DNA from: Leuctra nigra
Lineage: Eukaryota; Arthropoda; Insecta; Plecoptera; Leuctridae
Length of the DNA: 64,000 nt
Direction: 5' to 3'
Assembly (NCBI GenBank): GCA_934045905.1
Contig: OW203763.1
Coordinates: 16,994,948 to 17,058,947 of the forward strand
Shown here: piece by piece, positions 1 through 56,219 of the stretch
Layout: every line of letters begins with the position of its first letter
Position numbering within the stretch: position 1 is the first letter of the stretch
The notes under the pieces: model-generated
Told to the model about the DNA's origin: nothing
The model's input: the letters and a program-made list of their open reading frames with translations, nothing else
Databases searched by the model: none
Made by a program: the position numbers and the translations under genes

Positions 1-3000
1 CTGATCATACAAGCTAAGGACGGAGGCGTTATTCCTCGAGTCGCGTCCACAGAGTTGGTCGTCAAACTCAGACCTGCACATCTCTTCCCAACGATAGCGC
101 CACTCCGAGGTAACATGAAAGGCAGTTGAGATACGGAGTCAGTCGAAAAACTAGCTCTCTTTCTTGAAAGAAAATGTGGTGAAATTTGGTATAATAGAAA
201 CTAGAAAGCATAAAAAGCTTACTAAAATAGTCAGATTTTATCATTTATATATATTTCAATAGAATCAATTACTATAAAAATATTCAAACCTTAATCCAAC
301 TTACAAATATATACTAGGTATAAAGTTTGCTGCCATACTGGTTGGTTTTCAATTGCAATGAATATATTAAGATTACTATTAAGAACGAATAATTGTTATG
401 CAACCTCATGAACTTATTTGGTGGCTGTGTTGCATAATAATTAACAGGTACATGCATGTACCTACACATAAACAAAATAAAATATTTTGTAGCAATAACG
501 TTTTGCTACTCTGTTTTAAGTATGTCTGCACATTTTATTACATTAAAATTCTAATTCATTTCTTCTGTCGTCAGATCCGAGTTTCTCTCTACCGGAGGAT
601 GTATCTGGCGGCCAAGTAATCGCCCGACTGAGTGCAACATCTCCCAAGGTCGGACCAGCCAGCGCCATCCGGTTCGCCATCGCGGGTGGAAATGTGGGTG
701 AAGCTCTCCGCATGGATCCGACTACAGGGGAGGTTCTCGTCACTGGCGGCGGCTTCGACTTCGAAACAGCACCGCAATACGTCGTCTGGGTGGAAGCCAG
801 GGATTCCGATGATCCACAGCTGAGGAACGTGTTACGACTTGTTATCAATGTAACAGATGCGAACGACAATGCTCCTGTTCTGGAACGTGCCCTCTATAAT
901 GCAACAATTCTTGAAGAGGAATCCCCTCCACAGAAAGTGATAACGATTCGAGCAACAGATTTAGATTCTGGAATCAATGGACAAGTAATCTATCGGCTTG
1001 TTGATGATCAAGATGGTGCTTTCGAAGTGAACAAAGAGACTGGTGAAATCTTTACTACAATGCGAATGGATAGAGAGACAATATCAAGCTACGAGCTTGT
1101 AGTGGAAGCTATGGATCTTGGAGTGAAGCCCTTGACAGGAACAGCCACGGTGTTAGTCACTGTTCTCGACAAGAATGACAATCCACCAAGGTTTAGTCGC
1201 TTGTTCAGTGTCAATGTTACGGAAAATGCGGAACAAGGTGCTTTTGTCATCAGAGTAACGAGTTCAGACTTGGACATAGGCGACAACGCAAACGCAACCT
1301 ACAGCTTCACTGAGAATCCGGGCGGAAAGTTTGCTATTGATTCTGTGAGTGGAAATGTCACAGTGTCAGGGCCGCTGGATCGGGAGTCACAAGACGAGTA
1401 CATACTGAAAGTGGCAGCTGTTGACGGTGCATGGCGGGCAGAAACTCCTCTTACCATTACGATACAAGATCAGAATGACAATTCACCGGAATTTGAACAT
1501 TCTTACTACAGTTTCAATTTCCCGGAATTGCAACGTTCGGTTGTGTTTGTTGGCCAAGTGGCAGCTTCCGACCGAGACAAACAAGGTCCCAACTCTGTGA
1601 TCTCGTATGCACTGAAACATCCTTCAGGTCTCTTTACAGTCGATCCAGCCAGTGGTGAGCTGTTTTCCAAGCGCAGTCTACATTACAAGCACACAGCAGT
1701 GGACACTTCTCCAGAAAATCAGTACATCTTGACGGTGACAGCAACTGACAACGGCAAACCACCCATGTCATCCGAAAGCCTCATCACTGTGAACGTTGTG
1801 GATGCCAACAATAACGCACCACATTTCTCTCGTCGGGAATACTTCACACCGGTGCCAGAAGATGCTTCCATTGGACAACCTATTGTGCGAGTGAGCGCTA
1901 TCGATGAGGCCGACTTCGGAGTCAACGCAGAAGTGGAATATTTGAAGATGACAGGCAACGGTTCAGATATGTTTGCTATTGACAAGACAACTGGTTGGAT
2001 ATCTGTAACTCGGCCATTAATTGGACGACTATTGCAAAGATACACTCTTGTAGTCCGAGCAATCGATAAAGGCGTTCCTCCGCAATATGACCAAGTTCCA
2101 GTCACGTTGATAGTTACTGGAGAGAATCGACACAGCCCTGCTTTTACAGCACTTAGCTATCAAGTAATTGTGCCTGAGAATGAACCACAAGGATCGACAA
2201 TACTCACCGTGTCTGCTTCTGATGAAGATGAAGGACCCAATGGAATGGTTCGTTATGCAATTTCGGGAGGCAATGAAAGAGAAGAGTTTGCTGTAGATGA
2301 AATAACAGGAGCGGTCACCATAAAGCAGCATCTTGATTATGATACCATCCAAGAATATCGACTTAACATCACTGCAAATGACGTAGGCTTTGAATCACGT
2401 TATGCCACGGCCACACTGACTGTAACTTTAACAGATATCAACGACAATGCGCCAACTTTCAATCAATCAGAATATGAAGCAACCCTCTTGGAAAACTCAC
2501 CTCTCAAGTCATTCGTTCATAGAGTTGTGGCTCACGATGCAGATTCGGCGAAGAATGCAATCATTCAGTACTCCATTGTCGGCGGAACTGGACGCGACGC
2601 CTTCAGCATAGAACCCAAGTCCGGTGTGATTTACTCCAAGGCCAGTTTTGATTATGAAGAGAAGAGTCTCTACACTCTGGATATTCTAGCTGCTAATCCA
2701 GACTCGGCCATGGTGGGATCTACGAAAGTGTCTGTTCGAATCACCGGACGCAATGAGTTTTTTCCTCGTTTTGTTCAACCCGTGTTTCATTTCGACGTAT
2801 CTGAATCGGCTGAGGTAGGGACTGCAGTGGGTGCAATACAAGCAACTGACCAAGATGCAGGTCAAGATGGTGTTGTTTATTACCTATTTGTTGGCTCATC
2901 AAACGATCGAGGGTTCAGCATCGGTGCTGACTCAGGCATCATCAAGGTCTCCAGGAGACTTGATCGTGAGACTCAGAATCGTGTTGTTCTTACAGTCATG

Positions 3001-6000
3001 GCAAAGAACTTTGGTGGTATTCGTGGCAATGACACAGATGAAGCACAAGTTATTGTTTCCATAGAGGATGGCAATGATCCACCAGAATTCTTGCAGCTGC
3101 TCTACGAAGCTGAGATATCCGAAGGGGCACAAGTAGGCAGTAAAGTCGTTACTGTTAAAGCCCTTGATAAAGACGTGAGACCGCAAAACAACCAGTTCTC
3201 ATACTCTATTATTGGCGGAAATATTGGCCATGCATTCAAAGTGAATCCTCAAACAGGCGATGTGGAATCCACCCTTCATTTAGATCGAGAGACAGTTCAA
3301 GCATACACTCTCACGCTGGGAGCCATTGACATAGGAATTCCTCCACAGACCGGTACCACCATCGTCCGCATAACAGTGCAAGATGTCAACGATAATGGTC
3401 CAATGTTTGAGCCACCAAATGTCATCGGTTACGTAACGGAAAACGAACCACCAAGTACTAGTGTTATGACTTTGAGTGCAACAGATCAAGATCTCTCTCC
3501 TAATGGAGCACCTTTCACTTATTATCTGATAGGTGGGAGACACAAAGATCTTGTTACTGTTGAGAGGCACACAGGGATTGTAAAGACAACTCAATCCATT
3601 GACCGAGAAGTCATGTCTCAGCTTGATATTGTGATCGAGGTAGAGGACGGAGGTGAACCGCGAATGAAGTCCCAACATCCAGTTTCAATCGTAATATTAG
3701 ACCAGAATGATAGTCCATCAACTCCTCGTTCAGTTCATATTTTGGTCCATACATTCAATGGTGTCTATCCATTAGGAAAGATTGCCAATGTTCATCCAAA
3801 TGATCCTGATTCCACAGGAGAATACCGCTGTCAAATCCTCAGCTCCTCACCAATGAGCGGGCTGCTGACAATTCCATCTGGATGTGACTTACATGCAATG
3901 AAAATAGCTCCTGGCGTAAAACATTCTCTCAGCATTTCGGGCAATGATGGAGTCCATCCAGACGTTGTTTCTTCAGTCTCCTTAGAATTCATTCTGTTCG
4001 ACAATGCCACCGTTGAAAATAGTTTGACTCTGCGCTTTGAAAACGTGACCGCTAGCAAGTTCCTGACACACTTCTACAAAGGATTGATGGACATTCTGAA
4101 GAGTAGTTTCTCCACAAGTGATGTGGTATTTGTGTACAGCATGAACGAAGTGGATGGAGGAGTGGAATTAGCCATGGCTGTGAAGGGAATTCAAGGCTAT
4201 CATACCAAAGCTCAAATAATGGAGACATTGGCAAGGAAGCGAGTCACCATTCAGCATCAGCTGCAAATACCATCGTTAATTGTCGCAGATTCGCCATGTC
4301 ATCGATCAGTGTGTGAGAATAGTGGAGTTTGTAGTGAAGGTGTCCGTGTCTATGAAGAGACTAGAGTGATAGACAGTCAGACCCTGGTGTTCACGAGTCC
4401 CCTAGTTCAGCATGAGTTCACTTGCAAGTGTACCGAGGGTTACACAGGACAGCGTTGTGAGAGGAGACAAGATCCTTGTTCTCCCAACCCTTGTCAAGCC
4501 GGTGGAACGTGTAGAAGACAAGGATTTGATTTTGTTTGCTCCTGCAGTGCCCTGCATGAAGGCAAGTTCTGTGAACTAGAACGTGGAGATGTGTGCGACG
4601 GCAATCCTTGTATCAACGGAGGCTCGTGTCGAGAGAGTCCTGACGGTTCTAGCTTCTTCTGTCTATGTCGCCCGGAATATGGAGGAAACCGATGCGAGAC
4701 TGCTGCTGATTCGTGTCGACACAATCCCTGTCTGTTTGGAGGGCTGTGCATTGCGCTGAAGCCGGGCTATCGATGCAGTTGCCCTGATGTACGTTATGGC
4801 AGGCACTGCGAGAAGGCAACATACGGCTTCGGTGAACTCTCTTTCATGACCTTTCCATCTTTGGATGCTGGAACTAATGATATTTCAATCATCTTTGCCA
4901 CAACCAAACCAAACTCGTTACTCGTCTACAATTTTGGTGCTGAAACTGGAGGACGATCTGACTTTGTTGCTCTGGAATTAGTTGATGGTCGAGCTACATT
5001 CTCTTATGGCGGAACTCGAACTGCAATCACTTCCATCTCTTCGGCAGGGAACAACTTGGCTGATGGAGACTGGCACAAGATAACAGCGACACGAAATGGC
5101 AAAGTTGTTTCACTCTCAGTCGCTTATTGCACAGAGAATGGTGATGTTTGTCAAGAATGTAAACCCGGTGACAATGCTTGCTACGCTGATGACAACGGTC
5201 CAGCAGGAACACTCAACTTCAACAACAATCCAATGTACATCGGAGGTCTGGCGAGTGCAGATCCAATCCTTGAGAGATTGGGACAAGTCCATTCTGACGA
5301 TCTTGTAGGATGCGTTCACAGTGTCTCCATTAACGGTCGAGCTCTCAATCTCAGCAATCCTATTAAATCCAAGGAAATTGAGCCAACATGTTATCGAGCT
5401 CGAAACCCCTGCACAGAAGAAACCTGCGGTAATCATCCATGCTTAGATCGGTGGAAGACTCAATCTTGCCGGTGCGACAACTTGATTTCACCGAACTGCC
5501 GTGAAGCTTTGGAGCCTGTATCAATACGCGAGGGTGGTTATCTCGAATTTAAAGTGTCTGAGAAACACAGACGAATGCATTTGTTGGAATCTTTGTATGG
5601 AGGAAACACGCTGTGGCAGAAGACAAGAAGCAAGAGACTGGTCGGATCTGGGACGACGTCATCTTTGCCCAAGAGCTTGGGGATTGTCTTCAGAACTGTC
5701 AGACCAGATGGAGTCTTACTCTATGCAGCTACAAACAATGACTTCACATCTATTCAGGTAAACAATTGAATCGTCTTTATGTTACATTCTTAACTATGAA
5801 TCTCTAATCTATCAATAAATAGTTTAGATCATAGTATCTAGTCCGAAGATGAATTGGAGGAAGTTATAAGCACACAGATATACATTTGAGTTAATAACTA
5901 ACGAGATAGGCACTAAATATCTATTCTCATTCACATCTGCATTAAAAATACCCTTATTTATGCAATTTGTACTCTAAAAATCTCTCAAGCAAAAGCAGTA

Positions 6001-8548
6001 GGTATGTAGCCAAGCCATTATGCAGTAGTATGATGTAGGTACCCAATACAGTCCCACAAATAATGTAATGATAACAATCTTGTTTGTGATATCCAGCTGC
6101 GCGGAGGTCATCTGGTGTATATGTCTCGGCTGGGAACATCTCGCAGTCCTGTTAACATGAGCGTCACAGAAGCCGGCAGCTTAGCTGATGGTCGCTGGCA
6201 CAACCTGACACTGCGATCACACAGCCGTGGTCTACGATTACACCTCGATGGCCGGGGCGTGGGCCATGAGCTGGATCTGGCAGGCGTGCACGACTTCCTC
6301 GATCCCGATCTCACGCTGCTCTCGGTCGGTGGCATGAGACATATCGAGTCAGCAACAAGCGATGCACATGCTAGAGGTAAGCACAAGTCTCATAGCATTG
6401 GCATTTGAGAGGACTAGGTAAAATAAAGACAAATGCTGGTATGATTCCCAACCCCCTAAAAATTACTGTCTCTTTTAACCTACCTGACCAACCTCCTCTG
6501 GTCAGGTCTCCTGACCAACCTTGGAATAATTGGATGTAAAAAGTTGCATTATATCGTTATTGTTAAAGGAAAACAACTTTGAGCAAACTATTTAAAATTG
6601 AGCCAATTTCATGAGTGGCAGATATAAATTACAACTAATCCAGCTAATGTAAGAACTTGTACATTCTTGTAAAGCCGTAAATTATTGGTAACTGTTCTCA
6701 GTGATACAAAGTTTTCTGTCTTCATTTCATACTTTGAAAAAGACTATGTTTGTTCACAATGTTAAAGATTTGACATATTTCGTTTCAGGCTTCGAAGGTT
6801 GTGTGGCCAACCTAAGCATCAATGGTGAGGTGCAACCATTCAATGGCTCCGGTAGTATTCTGCCGGACGTGATTCAAGTGGGTCAAGTCTCACGCGGATG
6901 TGTGGGGCCGGTGGGCGTCGGCGCAGCCACCGCTCCCGATCCTCTCAGCATCGGCATCACACTGGTCATCGTCTTCTTCGTCATCCTCCTCGTGGCCATT
7001 CTTGTCAGCTTCGTGGTCTTCCGACTTCGCAAGCAGAAGAAGGAAAAGGGCGGTGGGCCAGGTGGTAGTCCAGGACACGGCAAGCAGAACGGTGGCGCCA
7101 CAATGGTAGCAGGAGGTGGAGACGTTGGCCGGACACATCCCGGAGAAAGCAGCTTCCTGGGAGATAATGGAGACAATCTACGAGGTGGGCATCATCTCGT
7201 TGTACCTGAACTCATCTCTAAGAAATACAAAGAGCGAGAGATTGTAGCTAACGAACCAAGGCCACAACGACCCGACATTATCGAGAGAGAAGTGGTCAAC
7301 AAGTCCTTGCCTCAACGTGATGACCATCACCCCCCTCCCCCACCCACACAGCATCATCCCCACGAGGGTGACATCGATCTGCCAGAACACTACGACTTAG
7401 AGAATGCCAGCTCAATAGCACCCTCCGACATTGACATCGTCTACCACTACAAGGGCTATCGCGAGGGCGGCGTACGCAAATACAAAGCAGCACCTCACTT
7501 GCCTCCGCCAGGTGCTTCATACCATCACAAACACCAAGCAGCACAACAAGCTCAGCATCGACATTCTCCTCATCATGCGTCTGGCTTTCCACCGCATCCT
7601 CGCGAGTCCCCCAGACCTCCTCCTCCTACAACCAGAGTAGATTCACCTGCTCAGGGGCCTCAAGGAGTTGGTAAACTGCTGCAGAGTACACCATTGGCTC
7701 GGCTGAGTCCTAGCAGTGAGCTGTCATCGCAGCAAACACCCAGAATCCTCACTCTGCAAGATATCAGTGGTAAACCACTTCAATCAGCTCTCTTAGCCAC
7801 AACATCTTCATCGGGAGGCGTTGGCAAAGACGCACTGCACAGTAACAGCGAACGAAGTCTCAACAGTCCCGTCATGAGTCAGTTAAGTGGTCGGAGTTCT
7901 GCAGCTAGCGGAAAGCCAGGAGCACCTGGGAACGGAACGGGACTCACGGCTGAAGAGATCGAAAGACTCAACTCTCGTCCAAGAACGTCCAGTCTCGTAA
8001 GCACGCTCGATGCCGTGTCCAGTTCGAGTGACGTGCCGCGTGGTCATCGTTTGACAGTTGGTGCCGTACCACCTCCGGCGCATCATCCACATCTCGACAA
8101 CCACTCGTCAACGACAACAGACGAGTCTGGCAATGACTCGTTCACTTGCTCAGAGTTCGAATACGACAACAACAACGAAAAGAGAGATACAATATTCAAA
8201 GAGAATGACAATGAGGAAAGAAGATCTGATAGTAATCCGAAACCACCATTACCGCCAGTTCCTTCGACGTATGATGGGTTCGATTCGTCATTTCGTGGTT
8301 CATTGAGTACTTTAGTAGCGTCTGATGACGATTTGTCAACGCATATGGGTGCACCTTTGTATCGACCACATAATGGCTCTACAGCCGCATTAGGTTGGGA
8401 CTATTTGCTCAACTGGGGCCCAAACTTTGAGTCGTTAGTAGGAGTGTTTAAAGACATTGCCGAGCTGCCGGACTCGGTTAACGGTAGAGTCGCTGCGTCT
8501 CTGCGGCTTACAAGCAGTGCTCCGAAACCGTCCGAAGAATACGTGTGA
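1..8548 (+). CDS. CadN: Neural cadherin (N-cadherin), 3' part; N-terminus lies off the left edge
   Basis: Classic-type insect cadherin for calcium-dependent neuronal adhesion and axon guidance. Coding exons 1-109, 575-5757, 6097-6376 and 6789-8548 join in phase with GT-AG borders to give 2443 residues; the family protein is about 3000, so several hundred N-terminal residues are missing. About ten cadherin repeats (residues ~40-1090) show LDRE and DxNDNxP-type linkers. They are followed by a non-chordate classic cadherin region, EGF-like modules from about 1277 (CENSGVC, CINGGSC), a first laminin-G domain (~1453-1642), another EGF-like segment, a second laminin-G domain, and one membrane helix (~1910-1934) followed by RLRKQKKEK. 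The cytoplasmic tail has the juxtamembrane catenin-binding stretch (DIDIVYHYKGYREGG) and the beta-catenin-binding end (SSFRGSLSTLVASDDD, GWDYLLNWGPNFESL), finishing EEYV. Domain order and the near-invariant tail make the identification firm. Only one membrane exon is visible, whereas Drosophila CadN has alternative ones. Confidence 0.95.
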
Positions 8549-9724: not shown

Positions 9725-12700
9725 ATGGGTAATGCTGGCAGTGGATCGAGAGAGAGACATAAGTCCGGAGAAGTAACCCCAATATCACCAAGTAAAGATG
9801 GACAGGCCTTTATCTTTGACAAAAAGCCCCTCAACCCAAAACTTGGGTTTCAGCCTGCCCATGACGAAGAACACTATTTGTCCAAACATTCTCAGGTAAC
9901 TTATATCGCAAGACACTAATTTAATCAGTTAATATTGTGATTTACATAATCAAACTAATTTCTTGGGTCTCAAAACTAGCTCGAATATAGTATTAGTCGA
10001 CACAGATCTGCTACCATATCCGAAGGCACAAAAGTAGTGAAGAAAGCTCTGCCAACTGTCTTTAAATGGGAAGGAGGAGGCAAGAGTGTCTACATTAGTG
10101 GCACGTTTTCAAACTGGAAAACATTGCCTATGGTTAAAAGGTAAGCAATATCTTGCTGTCATTGTACTCAGTCGAAACGTTATGTTATAGCAAGTTGGTC
10201 AACCCCAGGAGTGCAGTAATGAAAACCAAAGGGTCACATCACACCGTCGTTTGCAGTTTGATGCTGTGGCTCTGGCGAGTAAACTTTGTTTATCTTTAGC
10301 CTTGATACGCCAATGCTCTGGGCTCATACCTAATATCGCATTTGTTTGGTGCTCTGATGGTGCTGAGCTTAAGGTCGGTGCTAGTATGGGCATTAAACAT
10401 GTAGCACAGTTCTAACTAAGTAGTACTGTGTATCGAAATGTTGTGCTATATTAGGTAAGGGTCCTGGCATTTATTTGGTGGAGTCCGCTGATTGTTCATC
10501 AGAGCCAAGGTCACCGTGCTACAGACATCAAACTGACATCATGACATCAAACTGTAACGCATGTTAGGTACCTAATATTTTCTCATTATTTTAAATTTTA
10601 TCACTCTACAACATCAACTCTGGTGAACATCTCTCTAAAAAGGTACCTACTACCTACCTAACTACCTAATAATATATTTGTTGCTTTGTTTCCAACACAA
10701 CACAATATGAATTCATAATTATTTAAATCTTAGTAATTTAAAAAAGCACTGGTGTTTAACCCGCTACCTTGTACCCTCCCAAAATAAGTGCCTGCCATCT
10801 GTTGCCCACCCTAGTAAAAATTCCTGACGCAATCCTATAATGCAGAGTGGAGAGTAACCAGAGTCTGTTTTGTTCATATTCAATTTAAATTTTAAAATAG
10901 GTATACCTAATATTTCAGAGGTAACCTGCGAAATAAAAACGCGCACCCCGACTGGGAATCGAACCCAGATCCTTCGGGTTACCGGCCCTATGCTTTAACC
11001 ATTAAGCTATCGGGACGCATTCTTAATCAGCAGGCTGGGTTGCCATACAACTCTTGCGAGTCCGAGTATCTGACCCATACACGAAGACTGAAGCACTTCG
11101 ACTTCCTTTGACAACGTGAATACATCTTCTCTCGAATGGCTATGCTCAAACTACTGAGCTAGGAGTGGATTGTTTGATAATGATGGACATTTTTAGTGAA
11201 TCTCTCACTTAGGGATGGTGTTTCAGAGGTAACCTGCGAAATAAAAACGCGCACCCCGACTGGGAATCGAACCCAGATCCTTCGGGTTACCGGCCCTATG
11301 CTTTAACCATTAAGCTATCGGGACGCATTCTTAATCAGCAGGCTGGGTTGCCATACAACTCTTGCGAGTCCGAGTATCTGACCCATTCGTGTATGGGTCA
11401 GATACTCGGACTCGCAAGAGTTGTATGGCAACCCAGCCTGCTGATTAAGAATGCGTCCCGATAGCTTAATGGTTAAAGCATAGGGCCGGTAACCCGAAGG
11501 ATCTGGGTTCGATTCCCAGTCGGGGTGCGCGTTTTTATTTCGCAGGTTACCTCTGAAACACCATCCCTAAGTGAGAGATTCACTAAAAATGTCCATCATT
11601 ATTATACCTAATATGTTAAGCAGAGGGAGAAAATTCATAATCATTATCTGCAACACTGTAGGTGTTGGTAGGTACCATGTGTGCGACCAATTAGAATATT
11701 GATAAATTGGACCTACCTACTGAAAAAAGGTTGTGATCACTGCCAGCCAGTGGGACAACCAATTAGTCCTACCTACTAGCTCCTCATTGCCATGCTTGGG
11801 AATGGGAACTAATGCCTGGTTATGCAAAATGAATTCCCACTATGTAAAATTAATATTGTATTCACTTTGTATTGTACTATCTAAGTAGTCCAAGCAAAAC
11901 TCACAATTATTCACTGAGCCAAGTTAACTCACATGTAGACTATGGATTGTTTGGTATCTTACCCTTATTCCTTGCTTGGTTTTGAGATGCATAGTCCTTT
12001 CTTAACATTTCTATATAAAGGAACAGAGACTCCTTTTTCATTTTTCTTTGTATCACATCTATGTTAGACATGGTTTATTTTCAGTCACGGAGACTTTGTG
12101 ACCATTATCGACTTGCCGGAGGGAGAGCATCAGTATAAGTTCTTCGTGGATGGAGAATGGAAACATGACCCAGGAACGGTATGTACCTACCTATCTTATT
12201 TACTCGTAATTACAAATTATGACAAGACTTTGCCTATGAAAACATTCTAGACTACAACATTAGCGTAATTCTGAAGTATATTTTCATTCAGTAAATCAGG
12301 CTTTATAGACTCGTGGTCTCCATTCAGACATGAGGTGAGGTGCATGGTTGATCTCTCAGATGTATGCAATTAATTACCTACTAGGACTCCATCATGGTCC
12401 TCATAATATTTCTCAAGCACCTCTGTCTCACATCTTTCTGGCAGTCACGTCCCACTCCCCCTTGTAATTCATTAGCCTTGGTCTATATTACAGAACACTG
12501 CAAGAAAATTATGATTATAATTATAAATTATTTTATTAACCATCATCATCACTGATTTCATTGCATTTTACCAATTACCAACTTACGTACTATTGCTAAT
12601 AGAGAGTGATTGTTTTAGAGTGTGTTTGTCTTATTTTTTTCTTCATCCTCTGCTGCATCTCCTCTGTCTTAAGTTCCAACCTTTAAGTGTCATCCTGTTT

Positions 12701-26155: not shown

Positions 26156-27955
26156 ATGATGCAGTATGTACGTCACGTGTGTGTTCTCAGGTATGGAGTA
26201 CTATTCCGTGTCATCATCCGTGTCCGTGTCATCCGAGACGAGCAGCGAGGAGGGTGGGAGTCGCCATCATGTGCGGACATTGAGACTGACACGCCGGGGA
26301 TGTCCGCCATATGATGCAGTATGTACGTGCGTGTTCTCAGGTATGGAGTACTATTCCGTGTCATCATCCGTGTCCGTGTCATCCGAGACGAGCAGCGAGG
26401 AGGGTGGGAGTCGCCATCATGTGCGGACATTGAGACTGACACGCCGGGGATGTCCGCCATATGATGCAGTATGTACGTGCGTGTTCTCAGGTATGGAGTA
26501 CTATTCCGTGTCATCATCCGTGTCCGTGTCATCCGAGACGAGCAGCGAGGAGGGTGGGAGTCGCCATCATGTGCGGACATTGAGACTGACACGCAGGGGA
26601 TGTCCGCCATATGATGCAGTATGTACGTGCGTGTTCTCAGGTATGGAGTACTATTCCGTGTCATCATCCGTGTCCGTGTCATCCGAGACGAGCAGCGAGG
26701 AGGGTGGGAGTCGCCATCATGTGTGGACATTGAGACTGACACGCCGGGGATGTCCGCCATATGATGCAGTATGTACGTGTGTGTTCTCAGGTATGGAGTA
26801 CTATTCCGTGTCATCATCCGTGTCCGTGTCATCCGAGACGAGCAGCGAGGAGGGTGGGAGTCGCCATCATGTGCGGACATTGAGACTGACACGCAGGGGA
26901 TGTCCGCCATGTGATGCAGTATGTACGTGCGTGTTCTCAGGTATGGAGTACTATTCCGTGTCATCATCCGTGTCCGTGTCATCCGAGACGAGCAGCGAGG
27001 AGGGTGGGAGTCGCCATCATGTGCGGACATTGAGACTGACACGCCGGGGATGTCCGCCATATGATGCAGTATGTACGTGCGTGTTCTCAGGTATGGAGTA
27101 CTATTCCGTGTCATCATCCGTGTCCGTGTCATCCGAGACGAGCAGCGAGGAGGGTGGGAGTCGCCATCATGTGCGGACATTGAGACTGACACGCCGGGGA
27201 TGTCCGCCATATGATGCAGTATGTACGTGCGTGTTCTCAGGTATGGCGTACTATTCCGTGTCATCATCCGTGTCCGTGTCATCCGAGACGAGCAGCGAGG
27301 AGGGTGGGAGTCGCCATCATGTGCGGACATTGAGACTGATACGCAGGGGATGTCCGCCATATGATGCAGTATGTACGTGCGTGTTCTCAGGTATGGAGTA
27401 CTATTCCGTGTCATCATCCGTGTCCGTGTCATCCGAGACGAGCAGCGAGGAGGGTGGGAGTCGCCATCATGTGCGGACATTGAGACTGACACGCCGGGGA
27501 TGTCCGCCATGTGATGCAGTATGTACGTGCGTGTTCTCAGGTATGGAGTACTATTCCGTGTCATCATCCGTGTCCGTGTCATCCGAGACGAGCAGCGAGG
27601 AGGGTGGGAGTCGCCATCATGTGCGGACATTGAGACTGACACGCCGGGGATGTCCGCCATGTGATGCAGTATGTACGTGCGTGTTCTCAGGTATGGAGTA
27701 CTATTCCGTGTCATCATCCGTGTCCGTGTCATCCGAGACGAGCAGCGAGGAGGGTGGGAGTCGCCATCATGTGCGGACATTGAGACTGACACGCCGGGGA
27801 TGTCCGCCATGTGATGCAGTATGTACGTGCGTGTTCTCAGGTATGGAGTACTATTCCGTGTCATCATCCGTGTCCGTGTCATCCGAGACGAGCAGCGAGG
27901 AGGGTGGGAGTCGCCATCATGTGCGGACATTGAGACTGATACGCAGGGGATGTCC
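26156..27955 (+). repeat. 12-copy, 150-bp tandem array spanning a splice acceptor and exon start
   Basis: The word GGTATGG recurs at exactly 150-base steps from 26190/26191 to 27840/27841, twelve times. Each unit carries the intron end (GTGTTCTCAG) and the first part of the exon (MEYYSVSSSVSVSSETSSEE...), and units differ by only a few substitutions (for example CGCCGGGG/CGCAGGGG and CCATATG/CCATGTG). Because 150 is a multiple of three and there are no stops, the array is one open frame of 50-residue repeats running into the PDZ domain; the opposite strand is also open. The first unit has five extra bases (CACGT) before its acceptor and is probably the ancestral boundary. The last unit leaves the array at GCCCACCTTCGGG and continues as unique PDZ sequence. 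Confidence 0.95.
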
Positions 27956-30900
27956 GCCCACCTTCGGGTTCTCCTTGCGGGGCGGCAAAGAGCACGGCAC
28001 AGGCTTCTTCGTCTCTCATGTCGAGGTGGGCTCGGAAGCCTACTGCCAAGGACTTAGGGTGAGGAGACAAACTAGCTATTTTATTTAGTAAATAGTAAGT
28101 TGGCTCGGGTGGTTACGTGCTGGATGCACTCCAAAGGTTTCGGGTTCAATTCCCATGGCCTCGGTATTTCGTGGGTTCCCTTAGTCCAGGGAAAATGCTA
28201 GAAAGGTTCCCTATACTATTATGCCACCACCGTCCCCTTCCCATCGTCGATCCTTATTGTTATAAAACTATTCTTCATCATCTCTCTTTCATCATCATAA
28301 TCAGCATTAACCTAGTTGCAGAAAAGTGCGACGTTAAGAATGTACCTATACACTTAAAGTGGGCCGAAAATTCGACAAAAAGTAAAAATAATGTATATAA
28401 CTAATTGGTTCACCTAACTTGGCTCTGTACTATTTGGGACGTTTATGGTCCTCAACTGTATTCGTTGAACCGTTGAACCTAGCGGTATGCTTGTAGAATC
28501 TATGTTTCATAGTCTGGGAAAGTCAAAATATGTTCTCGAATGTTATAAATTGATTAACCAAGCCCTTTGGAACATTCCTTACAAATCTGTTTCTTAGTTT
28601 GTTTTTTCATCAATTTTGCTTGTACCATGTGTTCTTGATGGGGAAAAAATCCGGATATGGTATTTATACGAGATTTCTTTTTACCGTAATTGGATCAGTA
28701 TTTAAATGTTAAAAACCTTATGACAAAATTTCTCGATAAACGTATATAAAGACAACCTACATTGCTCCCACCAGCGTTTCTCCTTATTTTCAATCACAAG
28801 ATAGAAATCATGCACATAATGTCTGTTTTTCACACTGTTTTTCATCAGAGACTATTTTCACCCCGAGTTAGCTTTATACTCAAAATATTATCCTGACCTT
28901 GAAACATCACCTTGATTTCTTCTTGAAAGATTTTTCGTATAATTGAAAAAATAATTAATGTTTCACTTCAGTGCATAAAGAACCATTCATTCTTTAAAAC
29001 AATAGAAGCGAAATATCTCTTTCTGTGGCATAAGAACTGGTTATTTCATATAATAAGTGAAAATATCTTCAATTATAATCATACTAGTTCTAAAACAACT
29101 AAACAACAAGACTTTTTTTGTCGACTAATATTTTTTATAATAGATGGTTCCTTCCAAATGCCGATAGTCCATTACAGCCTCCTCCCACCTTCCTTCCTTA
29201 TCATCATCATCATCAGCAGCAGCAGCAGCAGCATCATCATCATCTTTATCTCATAAGCATGTGTTGACCATTTGTTTAGATTTTTTCAAGTAACACTCAA
29301 CAAATGATAAAACGGTATTTGAAAGAAATGGGTTGTTTGAAAAAATGTGAAGATGAGGTCTATGCTAGCTCGTCATCTATATATACCTCGAGCTCTGATT
29401 TCATTGATAAATAACAATGATTGATTATCAAGGAACCTGACCAGCAGCCAATCCGTTTCGTTCAAATACCGCTTTATGATTTGTTGGGTACTACCTATAA
29501 AATGTTTTAGATTTTGTTATATCTATAATAATACACATTGTCCCTAATTTTTACTTAGTGGAAGCGAGTTGCGTATTAGCAGACATTATAAAACCAATTA
29601 ATGAAATAAATCAGACTTGAAATGACCTAGCTGTCAAGTCGTCTATCAACATCAATGAAAAGTCACGTGCTCTGTTCCAGATTGGCGACCAAATCATGCG
29701 TGTCAACGGTTTTCCTGTGGACAATGCCGTGCATATAGAAGTACTGCACCTCATTCAAAGTCTAACACATGTGAACTTAAAAGTCAGAAGTAAGTAATAA
29801 TTACGTACCGTACCGGTTAATTACATTAATTGCTAATTAGCCAAAAGATTTAGACGTTAATTGTTACAATGTTTCTCATTGCTTTGTATTACAAGTAAAT
29901 TGCGTTAAAAGAATTCTTCATTTTACCTGACCTGAGAGGGTCATAAACGACAAAGTATACCCACAATTTGTTCAATTTAGTACGGAAAAAACCGTTATCC
30001 CAACAAATAATAAAGAAAATACATGTAAATTCAGTTATATACTTTCTTAATTTTCAGAAAAATGCATATTGTACGATTTACATTACTAAATTTGTCTGAT
30101 TTTGTCCACTGACATACTTATTATACAATGTTGCTATTATTACCTACATTAATAATATTCTGTTTTGTTCACAGCTGTCGGTATGATCCCTGTAAAAGAG
30201 TACGTATAACTAGCCATTCTTCAACATTTCCTGTATTTTCTACTCTACCTACTTCGAGACATGATTACCATGCACACTTCGTACAAACTTTAAGCGTATA
30301 TATCTACTATGTTATTATTTTTCGTAGTCTATAATAAAATACTTTTTAGGACGCACCATCATTGAAGTGAACGCTACAATAGCTTCTTTTATACAAGTAC
30401 TATGGATATGACATTATTTCATTGACAATACTTATTCGTGCTACTTTACATTGTTCACATCTTTCACAAAGATTTCAAATTGAGTGAATGAATACATATT
30501 TCAGACAATTGTTGACAGTTTTCTAAAAATTATAAATATGAAGTAATGCTGGGAATAAAGACTAGACAGTATTCAGACTGAATTCCTCAGTCTATTATTT
30601 TTCGTGTTTTATTTCACTTTATATCTCCAACCATAATTATAATCATTCACCGAAAGATTCTACTGACGAGAGTGGAAGTTGGAAATATAAGTCCTTGACA
30701 TGGAGAAAAACCAAATTATTAAAATATAAAAATTAAATATTTTTTTCTTTTAAATATTACATTGCATATATTTTAGACTCAAGTTCGCTTTAATAACATA
30801 CGAACAAGGGTAGGATTGTCACCGTGAGTCCAATGAACTGGTTCTGGCCACACTTGAGAGAATGATTATGTGAACGTCCTTTTGTCTTTGTCACTCGAAT

Positions 30901-36900: not shown

Positions 36901-39900
36901 AAACGCGTTTCAGCTACATTATCGTGTCAGAGAAACGCTTTCATAATCATCCTCCTTAAATTATTGGAAAAACGACATATTTTCTCGTACTTATTACACG
37001 TTTTACACGTTTGAACAATGGTCAACTGGCTGAGAGCTGCCACGAGAGAAGGGCGAGAGGAAATCTACAGAAATGGGCTCATTTTCGGGGTCCACCCACA
37101 TAGCAGCAAAAATCTCAGCCTTTCACACTGGAATTTACCTTCGCTGTAGCAAGTACCATAATGCTATGCGCAGCAATCCAGATCTTCAAACATTTTAATG
37201 AATTTTTTATTAAATCGCCAGAACTAAACCGATCTACCGACTAATTTGACACTTTATCTAAGTGTATCACCAATACAATCATCTTGTTTTTGGTGACAAT
37301 AATTTTTCGATACAAAAAAATTACGTGCTTGAAGTTGACCAAAAAACAAAAATTTGGGGTTTTCATAATTTTCGCGACGTTTTTCTATTCAAATACAAAA
37401 CAAAAGTCCACCTGAAACAAGCCATACCTGATATGAACATGACAAAAAATACAAACTATATTCTCAGTATTTAGCTTGTGAAATCGTGTTAAAAGGTCAA
37501 AAAATGGCCACGGAAATTGAGTATACCTACTCTAAGATATGGAGCCCAATTTTGTATATTATATTCCCCTTCTCTCTTTATACAGATGATCTTAGTCTGA
37601 GTTTGCCTCCAATTTCACCAATAACAGATTTCTCTTGTTTTCAACCCCCTAGAACGGCGAGCACCAACCGCTGAAGAAGAGTCAGTCGTCGAGCTCGGTG
37701 AGCAGTCTCAACTCTGCACTGAGTCAGGAGTTACAACGACGAACTCTGCGAGCGGACTCAGATGCGACACGTGACCAACAGCGGAGGAGATTGCTGAAGG
37801 CGATTGATCGAGAGAAACAGGAGCAACATGCACGGCTGATGAACGAGTTCAGAACAGCCCACAGGATGATGTTCAGAGGATCGCAGGGTCCAGACGATGA
37901 ACAAGATCAGGTAATGCATGGTTCATGATGAACAAGATCAGGCAATGCAGGGTTCAGATGAACAAGATCAGGTAATGCAGGGTTCAGATGAAAAAGATCA
38001 GGAAATGCAGAGTTCAGATGAACAAGATCAGGAAATGCAGAGTTCAGATGAACAAGATCAGGAAATGCAGAGTTCATGATGAACATGATCAGGTAATGCA
38101 GAGTTCAGATGAACAAGATCAGGTAATGCAGAGTTCAGATGAACAAGATCAGGTAATGCAGGGTTCAGATGAACAAGATCAGGTAATGCAGAGTTCAGAT
38201 GAACAAGATCAGGTAATGCAGAGTTCAGATGAACAAGATCAGGTAATGCAGAGTTCAGATGAACAAGATCAGGTAATGCAGGGTTCAGATGAACAAGATC
38301 ATGGTAATGCAGGGTTCAGATGAACAAGATCAGGTAATGCAGGGTTCAGATGAACAAGATCAGGTAATGCAGGGTTCAGATGAACAAGATCAGGTAATGC
38401 AGGGTTCAGATGAACGAGATCAGGTAATGCAGAGTTCAGATGAACAAGATCAGGTAATGCAGGGTTCAGATGAACAAGATCATGGTAATGCAGGGTTCAG
38501 ATGAACAAGATCAGGTAATGCAGGGTTCAGATGAACAAGATCATGGTAATGCAGGGTTCAGATGAACAAGATCAGGTAATGCAGAGTTCAGATGAACAAG
38601 ATCAGGTAATGCAGGGTTCAGATGAACAAGATCAGGTAATGCAGGGTTCAGATGAACAAGATCAGGTAATGCAGAGTTCAGATGAACAAGATCAGGTAAT
38701 GCAGAGTTCAGATGAACAAGATCAGGTAATGCAGGGTTCAGATGAACAAGATCAGGTAATGCAGGGTTCAGATGAACAAGATCAGGTAATGCAGGGTTCA
38801 TGATGAACAAGATCAGGTAATGCAGGGTTCAGATGAACAAGAAAGCAAATTTTAACAATTCCCCACAAGACACGTTTTTCAATACCTACTCTGCTAACTT
38901 TTGAACAGTTGATTAAAGGACTATATTGCCATGGCAACAACCAAAGGCATTCCTTGAATGACCGCTTAAACAGGGCTTTGAAAATCCGGGCCTTTGAAAA
39001 ACAGTCCCTAAGTGTCTTGTAGGGATTTCTTTTTATATTTTTCATCGTCGCGTTTTATTAAAAAGAATTTAGCAAATAATAATCGATGATTTCCCCACCA
39101 ATAGTAAAACTACCTGCCTATGATATTGACTGTTTGCTTCATCAGGCAAACTCTCCGGGAGCCAGGTTTCAAACGTTCTTATTCCAAATAAATACCCTCC
39201 ATTTTTGGGAAGTGTAGCTCAGGCAAAGATGCTGGATGGAGTCCATCATCCTTCCAAGATAATCTTCGTCATTTTCAACATAATTTAGCACTGAATATCT
39301 TATCAGTTATCAACGTTTAAAAGGAAACACAACAGTTCTTATAAATAGAGCTCGTGTTAATCCGTTGTTAGTGAAATAGAAATAAGAGATTTACTCGCTC
39401 ACATGATTCATCAAGCACATATGATTATGTGAAAATATAATGTTGATTCCACACCACCATTCAATTCCATGAGACTTGGCGTTACAACTCTAATCAAAGC
39501 CAGCTAAAATAAACATTTGCACTTAGTACATGATTGTTTCAAAAGAAGTCTAATATACAGGCTCTCTCTTATCTGAAACAATTCCATTACCGATAAGGAA
39601 GGTCAATTGTGAAGTGCATAAAGTATAAACACCTGTCAAAATGGCATTGCTCCACTGTGTACCGAAGATAACCAGTATATTGAAATAGTTTGTTTGTAGC
39701 TTGGAATTTGATTTATATAACGGCTATTCATATAGAAAAGGATCATTGCAACAACATAATTCTGTGTTTTATCAACACACCTATTTACGTCACAAGCCCC
39801 ACGGCCCACATAAATGATTCACTATTTCAAAGTATGAAAACGCTTGTAAAAAAATACACTTTTATAAACGAGGCTGTGTTATGCATGCAAACAATTCTGC

Positions 39901-50700: not shown

Positions 50701-51060
50701 ATTGAACGATCAATTTTAGTAGTGCCAAGTGTACCTACTGGACGGGTTTTGTTTTATTGACAAGAATTTTCGGAAGTTAAAAGACAAATTATTTGCCGTT
50801 TGACGTATATTTTTTCGATGTTAATGACTTAATTAATGATTTTAAAATCTTACGTTGAATCAAAGTCAGATTGTTGGTGGAGAGATGACCTAACCCCCCC
50901 CCCCCCCCACTCACCTGATTGAGAAGAATTTTACCAGCACTCGTTTATGGGTGAATAACATTGACATGTTATAGTAGATCGACCAAAGATACGATCGACT
51001 GTCGAATGATTATTGCACTGATAAGAGGGATGAATCATCCCCTCCTTGTCTGGTTTGGGA
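47759..51060. other. Intergenic region between the PDZ gene and the tubulin gene
   Basis: This holds the harmonin-like 3' UTR, a dispersed repeat at 48210-48310 and a SINE at 49544-49740. A poly-C tract at about 50894-50908 lies shortly before the tubulin promoter. No coding region can be supported. Confidence 0.6.
49544..49740 (+). repeat. tRNA-derived SINE
   Basis: An A-box-like TTGGCTCAGGC and B-box GGTTCGATTCCCC are followed by a body (ATTCGTGGTTTCCAAATACT..., CCATTGTCCATCATTAC) related to the SINE at 28098-28350. Confidence 0.55.
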
Positions 51061-51065
51061 CTGGG

Positions 51066-51100
51066 TATATATACCAAGTGGGGAGTTTGTCTCATCTCTT
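51066..51100 (+). promoter_or_regulatory. TATA-box promoter of the tubulin gene
   Basis: TATATATA at 51066-51073 stands about 120 bases before the tubulin ATG. Transcription would be expected to start near 51095-51105. A TATA box fits tissue-specific rather than housekeeping expression. This is motif evidence only. Confidence 0.5.
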
Positions 51101-51193
51101 TGGCTACACATCATCGTGCAGAGCGGCTGAGAGTGCAGGTTATTGACAGAATATTTACTGCCTTCTTGCTGCTTCTTGTTATCATCGGCGAAC

Positions 51194-54100
51194 ATGAGGG
51201 AAATTGTCTCCGTGCAAGTCGGCCAGTGCGGGAACCAAATAGGATGCAAGGTAAATACACATTTATATATAATATTATTATGTGTAGGCAAATCATTTTT
51301 AGGCTTCTAATAGAGGGGGAGAGCTAATTATTTTAAATAAAAACAATTTTAGCTTTTCGGTACAGTTTTTTCTTGCATATGTTCTGTGAGCCCTAGTCTT
51401 TAGAGGAATAATGAAGTAGTTTTTCTTTAAAATTAATAACATTTTTGATCGGGATATAATAAGTCATAGGAATGAGAATTTGTTGTAATTCATACCAAAG
51501 ATTAGTGAAACCATATTACATACAACTAGCAAAAAATATTGCCCCTTACCGTATGATATAATTAGATATTCTTGATTGAAGATCACTTTTCCCCCCATAA
51601 GATAACACAGGTAGAGTTGAAATCGTCCAGTAATTTTGGTCTTAAATTGCTCCTAAAACCGCAAGAGGAATGACAAAATATTGAAAATAGTCTCAAATTA
51701 AGGATAATAATTTTTAGAATAAGACTGCCGTTTGAAAATATAGGGTATCACGGGCCAAATAAGAAAGAAAATGTGTACAATGTGTGAAATCTACCATAAA
51801 TCTGGCAACATTGCACTACAAATATGATTTTTTGGGGATAATTTAATTGGAACTTCAATTAAGAACATATAATTAGAGCATACGGTAAGATATAATGGTT
51901 TTATGCTGTTGTTTGAGGTATTATTTCATCAGAGATTTGTATGAATTACGGCGAATTCTAAGCACCATGGCTGGAGCTGGGCCCACTAAGGTCCAAAAGA
52001 TGGACGAATATAAGTCGTCTTGTTGTTTTTTTTCCAAGTTTTAAGGAAATTCGTTCACTGAACGGCAATTTGGTTTTAATGTTAGCTAGGGTTGTGTATG
52101 ATATCGATTAATTTACCTCTAAATATTAGTTAAAAAGTGCTTTGTGGATGGGCAGAAGTGATTGATGCCGCTTCTCTAACCGATCCGTAAATAGAGCTAT
52201 TGCTCCTGCGAATTAACTTGTCATAAAACAATGAAAATATCTGGTGGTGGTGACGACCTCTGTGGTGACATTTCTTCATTTAATAATGTCGTCAACATTA
52301 CAATGTAGTGCAGTCGCTGGTAACTAGTGGCAGAGATCGTTCATACAATATTCTTGTCCCTGGTATTAAAATTATTATGTCTAGAAAATTGTTATATTAT
52401 TATTATTTTCTAGATTTTGCGTTGCATAAATTTGTCATTAGGAACTATTTAATCAAGCTCGATCAATTGCCTTTGACTGAAAATGTTCTTTCACAATGAC
52501 TCGTGTCACCAATTACAATGATTGGATGAAAGCTGAATCACTGTTTTTTGAGCTCACCTCGAAAATCATTGAAATGGACTTCCGACCTTCTACCTCTAAG
52601 GTACAGTTATTATCGCTCTGTATATAAGAATTGGGATGAATGAATACTCTTTTATTTACGTACTGAAATTGAATGCAATATAAGCATTCAATTTTGCTGT
52701 ATGGTCTCCGAAAATTTATGTTAGTTTAGTTCCTCCCCCTCATAGCTGGATAAGTTTTGATAGAACAAAACGGATTGGCTGCTGGTCAGATTCCTTGACA
52801 ATCAATCCTTGTTATTTATCAAAGAAATCGGAGCTCGCCTACTAGATAATGCGTTAGCACGTACTTCATGGGATGATGCTATTAAACCTTGATCAGCCAA
52901 TCTTATTCTTCCGATTACCTTTACTTACCGTTTATTATGTTCAAGTGTACATTTATTTATCTTGTTGAATGTTGATAATACATAATACCGGGTGGCGCAA
53001 AAAAAAATCCCCCTGATTAAGAGGTCACTATATCGAAACAATTATAGATAGGATTCTGAAATTTGAACACATATTAGAAAACATACCAAAATTTAATATG
53101 TGCACAAGTTTCAAAAACATTACTATTGTAGGAAAAAAGTTACAGCTGTTCAAATTTGGTTGTCAAAAAATTGATTAAACGTAGCTTCAAATAGCGCGCG
53201 TCGAGAAAACTTCCAATGGCCGGGACGCTGTTTCTTCAAAACTACTTACGATATCTAGCTGAAAATTTCAAATTATATTGAAAATATATTAAGATCGATT
53301 GTGTAAAAATTTCAGTCAATTTGATTGAATGGAACGAAAATTGAAGTTGAGCGTAAAATCAGAAAATTAAGATTATTTCTAAACTTTTATTACACACGTT
53401 ATAAAAGTGACTTCCCACTATTCTGTTTTCACGCTCAACTTCAAGATACCATAATTTTCGTTCCATGCATTTAAATTGATTGAAAATTTTACACAATCGA
53501 TCTTAATATATTTTGAATATAATTTGAAATTTTCAGCTTGATATCGTAAGTAGTTTTGAAGAAACAGCGTCCCGGCCATTGGAAGTTTTCTCGACGCGCG
53601 CTATTTGAGTTCCGTTTAATCAATTTTTTGACAACCAAATTTGAACAGCTGTAACTTTTTTACTACAAAAGTAATGTTTTTGAAACTTGCACATATTAAA
53701 TTTTGGTATGTTTTCTAATACGTATACAAATTTCAGAATCCTATCTATAATAGTTTCGATATAGTGACCTCTCAATCAGGGGGATTTTTTTTGCGCCACC
53801 CGGTATTCTCATTCTTTTTTATCACATGGTTTTACAATAATTATTCGTCTTTAAGTTCTGGGAGACAATCTCTGACGAACATGGCATCGACTACACTGGC
53901 AGCTACGTTGGAAACAACAAGAACCAGCTGCAACACATCGACGTGTACTACTCGCAGGCTCGGGAGAAGTACATCCCGCGTGCAGTCCTCGTCGACCTGG
54001 AGCCAGGCACCATGGACGCTGCTCGAGCAGGACCCTTTGGGAGGCTCTTCCGTCCCGATAACATTGTCCACGCCCAGTCAGGCGCCGGCAACAACTGGGC

Positions 54101-55748
54101 CAAGGGTTACTACTCGGAAGGCGCCGAGCTTGTTGAGTCCATTCTGGATGTCGTCCGCAAGGAGGCAGAGGGTTGCGATCTACTCCAAGGATTCCAACTC
54201 GCACATTCTATTGGTGGAGGTACTGGCTCTGGACTGGGAACTCTTCTTCTTGGTAAATTCCGTGAAGAATACCCAGACAGAATTTTTAAGACCTATTCAA
54301 TTTTACCGTCTGCGAAAGTTTCTAATACTGTTGTCGAACCGTACAACGCGGTTCTCTCATTACACCAACTTATCGATTCCACTGAAGAAACGTTTTGTAT
54401 TGATAACGAAGCGCTCTACGACATTTGTTTCCGCACTCTGAAGCTCAAGAATCCATCCTATGGTGACCTGAACCATCTCGTGTCGATGACGATGTCTGGA
54501 GTCACCACATGTCTGCGCTTTCCCGGTCAACTGAACGCCGACTTGCGCAAGCTCGCCGTGAACTTGGTGCCGTTCCCTCGTCTCCACTTCTTCGTGCCTG
54601 GCTTCGTCCCTCTGACGGCTAGAGGCAGCATCCAGTACACATCTTTGACTGTACCTGAATTGACTTCACAGATGTTTGACGCCAAGAACATGATGGCGGC
54701 TTGCGATCCTCGTCGTGGAAGATATCTCACCGTGGCTGCGATCTTCCGTGGCCTGATGTCCATGAAGGAAGTCGACGAACAAATGATGAATATTCAGAAT
54801 AAGAATAGTTCCTACTTTGTTCCGTGGATCCCTGACAACATGAAGACTGCCGTATGCGACATCCCTCCAAGCGGTCTGAAGATGGCTGCCACGTTCATGG
54901 CGAACACCACGGCCATCCAGGAATTGTTCAAGAGAATTGGTGAACAGTTCGCAACCATGTTCAGGCGTAAAGCGTTCCTGCATTGGTATATTGGAGAGGG
55001 CATGGACGAGATGGAATTCACGGAGGCCGAGTCCGACTTGACGGATTTAGTATCCGAATATCAACAATATGAGGCGGCAGAAGTGGATTTGGATGAAGAT
55101 AATAGTGATTTTAGTAACGATGATGAAGAAGTCGAAGAAGAAAAAGTTGAAGAAGAAGAAGGAAAAGTTGAAGAAGAAGAAGAAGAAGGAAAAGTTGAAG
55201 AAGAAGAAGAAGAAGAAGAAGAAGAAGAAGAAGGAAAAGTTGAAGAAGAAGAAGAAGAAGAAGGAAAAGTTGAAGAAGAAGAAGAAGAAGGAAAAGTTGA
55301 AGAAGAAGAAGAAGAAGAAGGAAAAGTTGGAGAAGGAGAAGAAGAAGGAAAAGTTGAAGAAGGAGAAGAAGAAGGAAAAGTTGAAGAAGGAGAAGAAGAA
55401 GGAAAAGTTGAAGAAGAAGAAGAAGAAGAAGAAGAAGAAGAAGAAGAAGAAGGAAAAGTTGAAGAAGAAGAAGAAGAAGAAGGAAAAGTTGAAGAAGAAG
55501 AAGAAGGAAAAGTTGAAGAAGTCGAAGAAGATGAAGAAGAAGACGATGGAGATGAAGAAGAAGACGATGGAGATGAAGAAGAAGACGATGGAGATGAAGA
55601 AGAAGACGATGGAGATGAAGAAGAAGACGATGGAGATGAAGAAGAAGACGATGAAGATGAAGAAGACATTATGAGAATACTTTGTGCACATTGTGTAACT
55701 TGTGAATATTGTAGAAGTATGAAACATTGTTACAGATGTAAACGGTGA
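51194..55748 (+). CDS. Divergent beta-tubulin with a giant acidic, cysteine-capped C-terminal tail
   Basis: Microtubule subunit that pairs with alpha-tubulin and binds GTP. Exon 1 (51194-51250) encodes [19 protein letters not shown], with the MREI autoregulation start and first nucleotide loop. Exon 2 (53856-55748) joins in phase 0 after a 2.6-kb intron; total 649 residues. Residues 1-425 are a full beta-tubulin body: GGGTGSG nucleotide motif, [38 protein letters not shown], but with many changes from the usually near-invariant isotypes (e.g. [32 protein letters not shown]). The tail (426-649) is about 224 residues against about 20 normally: glutamate blocks separated by about twelve GKV, six DEEEDDG-like units, then 26 residues with six cysteines. 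The axonemal EGEFEEE-type motif is absent. The intact frame and consistent splicing argue for a working gene, probably a restricted isotype. Confidence 0.9.
52500..52640 (+). repeat. Dispersed repeat fragment (family with CTTCTACCTCTAAG)
   Basis: TTTTGAGCTCACCTC...AATCATTGAAAT and CTTCTACCTCTAAGGTACAG are shared with 33740-33870 (+) and 25629-25720 (-). Confidence 0.4.
52760..52845 (+). repeat. Dispersed repeat, inverted copy of 29383-29470
   Basis: GGATTGGCTGCTGGTCAG and TTGTTATTTATCAA match the reverse complement of 29383-29470. Confidence 0.6.
52988..53803. mobile_element. Fold-back DNA element, copy 2, in the tubulin intron
   Basis: Same family as 32191-33013: ends CCGGGTGGCGCAAAAAAA and complement, flanked by TA, with long imperfect inverted halves. 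Its right end is 52 bases before tubulin exon 2 and just upstream of the acceptor TTTAAG. Confidence 0.8.
55130..55675 (+). repeat. GAA-rich in-frame repeat tract coding for the tubulin tail
   Basis: The first ~390 bases are GAA triplets interrupted by GGAAAAGTT (Gly-Lys-Val) at irregular spacing. The last part is six copies of a 21-bp unit encoding DEEEDDG (the last with E for G). All interruptions keep the frame. Glutamate is almost always GAA, which points to recent growth by replication slippage rather than selection on mixed codons. Confidence 0.95.
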
Positions 55749-55815
55749 CCTCCTGAATCCGCCCGTGATGTGTCTGCAACATTACACCTTGGTTCCACAA
55801 TCTTACAACCTAGAG
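55736..55815 (+). other. Possible extra coding exon overlapping the tubulin stop
   Basis: After TTACAG at 55730-55735 there is an open frame [19 protein letters not shown]... of about 26 codons, ending at 55815 just before a consensus donor GTACGT. Its composition is more protein-like than the surroundings. It could be an alternative 3' exon of the tubulin gene or a remnant of another gene. No partner exon was found. Confidence 0.2.
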
Positions 55816-56219
55816 GTACGTAATTTGTTATTTAGAGTGCTCTGTGAAAGAAGTTGGGTGTGTTTTTTTTAAATGTAACTCGCCGTTTTCATTTAATGAT
55901 ATTTCAGATTTTTAGGTGAGTTTCAATTCAGCAACGCTTCAAGTAAATATGTCTATTTTATAATCTCCGAACTTTCATGCGTTTCTCATAGCGATAACAA
56001 TTTCAATTGTTATGGATAATTGATCACTCTTGTTGCAAGATCGGAATTATGTGCCAAAGAAAATGTACATTATTTGAAGTATTACTCATATTTTTTTAGT
56101 AGATACCTAGCAATGTTTTACTGTGCACCTTAAGCCATATCTCCAACATTTATGCTGCACTTAATTATAATTAAATTCTTCTTCCATATTAAATCGTTCA
56201 TATATAAATATTTCTGTAC

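Follow-up and report, generated by a model that had tools for sequence, protein, structure and literature searches.

A beta-tubulin gene of Leuctra nigra with an open frame for a long, repetitive, acidic C-terminal tail

The 64,000-nt stretch of Leuctra nigra DNA analysed here (the window; G000:C13:16994948-17058947 in the searched genome of 536 Mb and 144 contigs) was found to carry, on the plus strand, a two-exon gene (51194-51250 and 53856-55748) whose translation is a beta-tubulin of 649 residues. Exon 1 encodes 19 residues and ends in a phase-0 junction after K19, and by eye the first intron follows codon 19 at the other beta-tubulin loci of the genome too; in the sister paralogue (L010/L039, described below) exon 1 lies at L039 5256. 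The exon-1 donor, AAG/GTAAAT, scores 7.9 bits with a hand-typed generic matrix, and the intron predicted from the sequence (51251-53855) runs from GT to AG. It contains a near-perfect palindrome of about 0.8 kb (53000-53792) that ends 63 bases before exon 2 and consists of three pairs of inverted arms, 89-156 nt long and 92-96% complementary; by its look, this may be a mobile element. The 5' flank (50992-51193), probably promoter and 5' UTR, is common to both paralogues, the segment 50992-51300, with exon 1 inside, being 72% identical to L039 5074-5359 (blastn). Beyond the gene, a block of 30 nt (56045-56074) is shared at 90% with the 3' flank of the paralogue and is probably a 3' UTR element; its core, TGCCAAAGAAAATG, was confined to these two genes among the loci fetched. 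A further open frame in another phase (55723-55869) overlaps the tubulin stop, has an exon-like look and a donor-like site at 55816, and gave no Pfam match.

The reading frame is open from the start of exon 2 at 53856 across a repeat tract to a TGA codon (55746-55748). The tubulin body in exon 2 (F20-E425, 53856-55073) is complete, with matches of the gene to the Pfam families Tubulin (PF00091, E 1.9e-49) and Tubulin_C (PF03953, E 1.3e-40) and PDB beta-tubulin matches of exon 2 headed by 'Tubulin beta-1 chain' (E 1.4e-231). The translation includes an N-terminal MREI and the motif GGGTGSG, both of which we take to be marks of beta-tubulin. Among the tubulins of the genome placed in a 15-sequence tree, the ten beta loci are 65-93% identical to the window body and the four alpha-like loci 38-39%, which assigns the predicted product to the beta- rather than the alpha-tubulins. 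An AlphaFold model built from a four-sequence alignment had a mean pLDDT of 35.5 and was discarded.

The tail that follows the body, counted from A426, is 224 residues long and in frame, roughly ten times the usual length. Positions 55071-55748 comprise 226 codons, namely 225 residues following EYQQY and the stop. The tail contains 115 Glu, 26 Asp, 21 Gly, 17 Val and 15 Lys residues, and its net charge is -122, counting Asp, Glu, Lys and Arg. It starts with 17 tubulin-like residues (55074-55124), partly alignable to the ordinary tail of the paralogue. These are followed by Glu blocks punctuated by Gly-Lys-Val (55125-55529) and by an Asp/Glu/Gly array with a 21-nt unit (55530-55667), both recognised from the translation and by Tandem Repeats Finder, which gave the extent of the tract as 55125-55666. 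The last 26 residues form a Cys-rich cap (55668-55745), in which six cysteines occupy one three-residue phase inside a degenerate 9-nt repeat. None of 20000 dinucleotide shuffles reached six Cys codons in one phase, in a test made after the pattern had been noticed. The cap has no match in Pfam and its only PDB matches had E values of 0.55 and 3.5, and its identification with a known domain was rejected; a role in metal binding or disulfide formation would be speculation. Translation and Pfam thus bear out the description in the earlier note of an intact beta-tubulin body running without a stop into Glu and Gly-Lys-Val blocks and then an Asp/Glu/Gly repeat. Its extent of about 224 residues also stands, while exon 1, the tubulin-like start of the tail and the Cys-rich end had been missed.

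A GAA repeat leaves a frame open almost by default, and such openness by itself is no evidence. An intact body that continues in frame into the tract, with open non-repeat sequence on both sides of it, is not due to chance. When positions 55660-56100 were searched against the same genome as DNA, with simple repeats skipped, only the self-match was obtained.

A search of the genome with exon 2 gave at least 104 matches, alpha-like ones included. At the eight other beta loci with readable ends, the tails after EYQQY or EYQMY have 17-42 residues (L007, 22; L008, 32; L010, 30; L013, 18; L014, 22; L018, 42; L046, 18; L048, 17). This count leaves out L017, L028 and L047 (tandem copies of a terminal segment), L032 and L049 (frame entering a probable splice donor), the broken copy L040, and the alpha-type tails of 14-15 residues. 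The sister paralogue L010/L039 (G000:C13:25203401-25204651) is on the same contig, and its exon-2 body is 93.6% identical to that of the window gene. Both genes share the similar 5' flank and a one-residue gap near codon 55, whereas the tail of the paralogue is of ordinary type, ends in IMV, and contains neither the repeat nor the Cys cap. In the 15-sequence tree the window gene, L039 (the L010 locus) and L040 group with a support of 100, L039 and L040 being the closest pair (97). L040 and L046 have one stop each in their joined matches, and the broken copy is L040, not the window gene. For the latter, the status of a processed or dead copy was ruled out by the retained intron, the frame free of stops and a dN/dS of about 0.15.

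Several other tubulin loci are themselves repeated. At G000:C4:24330981-24332483 (L047, L017 and L028) a terminal coding segment of a beta gene, about query codons 365-409, gives ten tandem matches, one every ~152 bp, and at G000:C4:24339796-24340517 an internal beta segment, about query codons 237-275, gives six tandem matches at ~121-bp spacing. The same beta-tubulin gene occurs with equal match scores at G000:C5:22390089-22396093 and C6:39049133-39055137, probably either a recent duplication or a duplication in the assembly. Three equal-scoring matches about 22 kb apart (L004-L006; G000:C13:32889364, 32911348 and 32933329) are alpha-like, with 40% identity to the window beta-tubulin.

The 22-nt repeat unit GGAAAAGTTGAAGAAGAAGAAG was used to trace the origin of the tail. 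Allowing one mismatch, it matched the genome 11 times, always within this tract, and the backward control matched twice. As the unit is confined to the tract, the tail probably grew in place, and a transposed or shared repeat was rejected. Remnants of an ordinary tail appear to flank the tract, AEVD on the left and IM on the right, when compared with L010 (AEVDGDDGGFDTDCEGEVHELDDTAIMV). The EGEVHE of the paralogue corresponds to the repeated EGKVEE, and where the paralogue ends in AIMV and a stop, the window gene continues after the tract with DIMRILC; the broken copy L040 also has DTDCEGE. The 3' DNA of the two genes has diverged and does not align cleanly. On these few residues, we infer that a seed within the old tail was amplified and that the original stop was lost.

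Codon usage in the tail is uniform. Glu is encoded by GAA in 115 of 115 cases, against 16 of 28 in the body (Fisher p 3e-10), and Lys by AAA in 15 of 15, against 3 of 18 (Fisher p 1e-6), so that the repeat is either young or still homogenising. With all 130 Glu and Lys codons in one synonymous form, the tail gives no sign of purifying selection, and this uniformity would suit either a drifting or a selected repeat.

For the body, compared with L010 across 405 exon-2 codons, dN is 0.030 and dS 0.201 (NG86), a ratio of about 0.15, which points to clear constraint; of the changes polarised against L011, eight fall on the window side and nine on that of L010, and nine are unassignable. For insect tubulin orthologues and recent duplicates, values of 0.000-0.070 are given in a survey (PMC2880298), and being above this range the ratio suggests that constraint may be somewhat relaxed. 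Neutral evolution of the body, which the earlier note had held would, together with absent expression, speak against its reading, is not what was found. Both the frame and this ratio support its proposal of an isotype whose long acidic tail is hard-coded in the main chain, here on a body under constraint.

Synonymous divergence between the paralogues is uneven. It amounts to 8 differences at 12.2 sites in exon 1 and 48 at 285.5 sites in exon 2 (Fisher p 2.6e-4), and varies from 0 to 0.34 among 45-codon blocks of exon 2 (heterogeneity p 0.009), while the nucleotide match to the paralogue falls off at 55096. Because of this unevenness and falloff, the simplest reading would be gene conversion of the exon-2 body that stopped near the tail and left the tails to diverge; as exon 1 has just 57 nt, the pattern is suggestive rather than proof. 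Under such conversion dS is unreliable as a clock.

Taken together, the data seem best explained by an expressed isotype with an acidic brush, its tail lengthened in place on a divergent but constrained body, a reading to which we give a probability of roughly 0.53. It is favoured by the two-exon gene with usable splice sites, open 649-residue frame and complete tubulin domains, as well as by the 5' flank and 3' block conserved with the paralogue, and from the gene anatomy translation of the tail is likely. An ordinary acidic tail would have grown as a short piece of its DNA was amplified in tandem, from a seed resembling the Glu-Gly-Glu-Val-His-Glu stretch of the paralogue, and a changed stop would have appended the Cys-rich cap. 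If translated, the tail would give each heterodimer a polyanionic extension of the main chain, probably disordered, whose net charge is about -122. Microtubules that incorporated this isotype, perhaps in some specialised tissue, would wear a dense acidic brush that could draw basic microtubule-associated proteins, motors and modifying enzymes, and space neighbours apart. A bolder form of the proposal is doubtful, namely that the brush is a selected, hard-coded polyelectrolyte that displaces or outcompetes enzymatic glutamylation, and whose C-x2-C cap could bind metal or link neighbouring tails by disulfides within stable arrays, the sperm axoneme for example.

The tail might instead be a tolerated passenger, a young GAA-type minisatellite expanded in a lightly used isotype, translated, unselected and variable in length among individuals; we regard this as a serious, though less likely, rival. 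The uniform tail codons (115/115 GAA and 15/15 AAA) speak for it, as do the paralogue tail of just 30 residues and a body dN/dS higher than in the surveyed insects. Further, a tract as old as the last exon-2 exchange should show 2.2 to 13 synonymous changes and shows 0, a comparison that depends on assumed per-lineage dS values (0.05-0.2) and site counts, with P(none) from 0.11 to <0.001. Against it, the body is clearly constrained still, the periodicity of the cysteines is not accounted for by composition, and a tail of 122 charges on a polymerising protein would hardly be without effect.

That the mature protein lacks the tail, with transcripts splicing it out or ending early or with proteases or carboxypeptidases trimming it, is unlikely. 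Enzymes that shorten the tubulin main chain are described (PMC12366701), and the 3' structure is left uncertain by strong donor-like sites beyond the stop (9.7 bits at 55816, 10.4 bits at 55916) and an acceptor-like one (55908). However, 53850-55750 contains no donor-like site above 6 bits. On the same hand-typed generic matrix, which gives the exon-1 donor 7.9 bits, the best site upstream of the tract (54463) reaches 5.2. At the eight other readable loci the same open frame meets its stop soon after EYQQY or EYQMY. Removal of the tract by splicing was rejected for want of a good donor. Least probable of all is an assembly error in the length of the tract or in its junction with the tubulin body. 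Simple repeats are error-prone and a single assembly was available, but the tract, at about 540 nt, is short by the standard of long reads and sits in a 51.7-Mb contig, the DNA beyond it was matched only here, and the junction is in frame with a paralogue-like start of the tail. The sequence feature is real and unusual.

Neither the sperm or testis use nor the swamping of the tubulin code suggested in the earlier note finds support here. Both the axoneme motif and Gly56 of the insect testis beta-2 isoform are absent from the window gene. The former, which we take to be of EGEF type, is missing from the tail; at the latter there is a gap (AR-EKY), common to L010 and L012, as compared with L011. 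Among the beta-2 copies in Table 1 of the insect survey, many are without the axoneme motif and just one is without Gly56 (PMC2880298).

The window gene resembles the insect beta-tubulin isotypes (beta-1 to beta-4; PMC2880298) in its body and variable acidic C-terminal tail, and their duplicates are under purifying selection. The survey covered 86 copies, and reproductive isoforms and tails were the most variable. For the part of the copies in its Table 1, the longest tail by our own count is 31 residues, as against 224 here, repetitive and with a Cys-rich end. In vitro, TTLL11 is reported to extend beta-tubulin C termini directly by as many as 27 glutamates (PMC12366701), and the window tail likewise would extend the primary chain with glutamates; unlike that enzyme-made product, it is longer and DNA-encoded, and Gly-Lys-Val and other residues break up its glutamates. 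Tubulin tails also gain bulk, and with glutamate charge as well, from side-chain polyglutamylation and polyglycylation, but these branch from the gamma-carboxyls of tail glutamates (PMC12366701), whereas the window tail is primary chain. Titles and abstract openings of open-access tubulin papers, among the matches listed and with the subscription literature mostly outside, contain no precedent for a DNA-encoded tubulin tail of this kind. If true, nature would have supplied in this gene a test of the tubulin code, its acidic main-chain tail being several times the length of the reported 27-residue enzymatic extension. Comparison with its near-identical sister gene of ordinary tail would isolate the effects of tail charge and length from the rest of tubulin.

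Elsewhere in the window, 694-5769 encodes a Fat/CELSR-like cadherin with cadherin, laminin G and EGF domains, and a frame at 6701-8548 that has no Pfam match is, by eye, probably an inner part of it. About twelve tandem copies of 150 bp (98% matches) occupy 26175-27958 inside an open frame of 640 residues, which by eye runs into PDZ-like sequence, with no PDZ in Pfam. Three tRNA-Thr (GGT) genes, two on the minus strand and one on the plus strand, lie at 10943-11528, and about 31 copies of a 30-bp repeat (96% matches) at 37896-38842.
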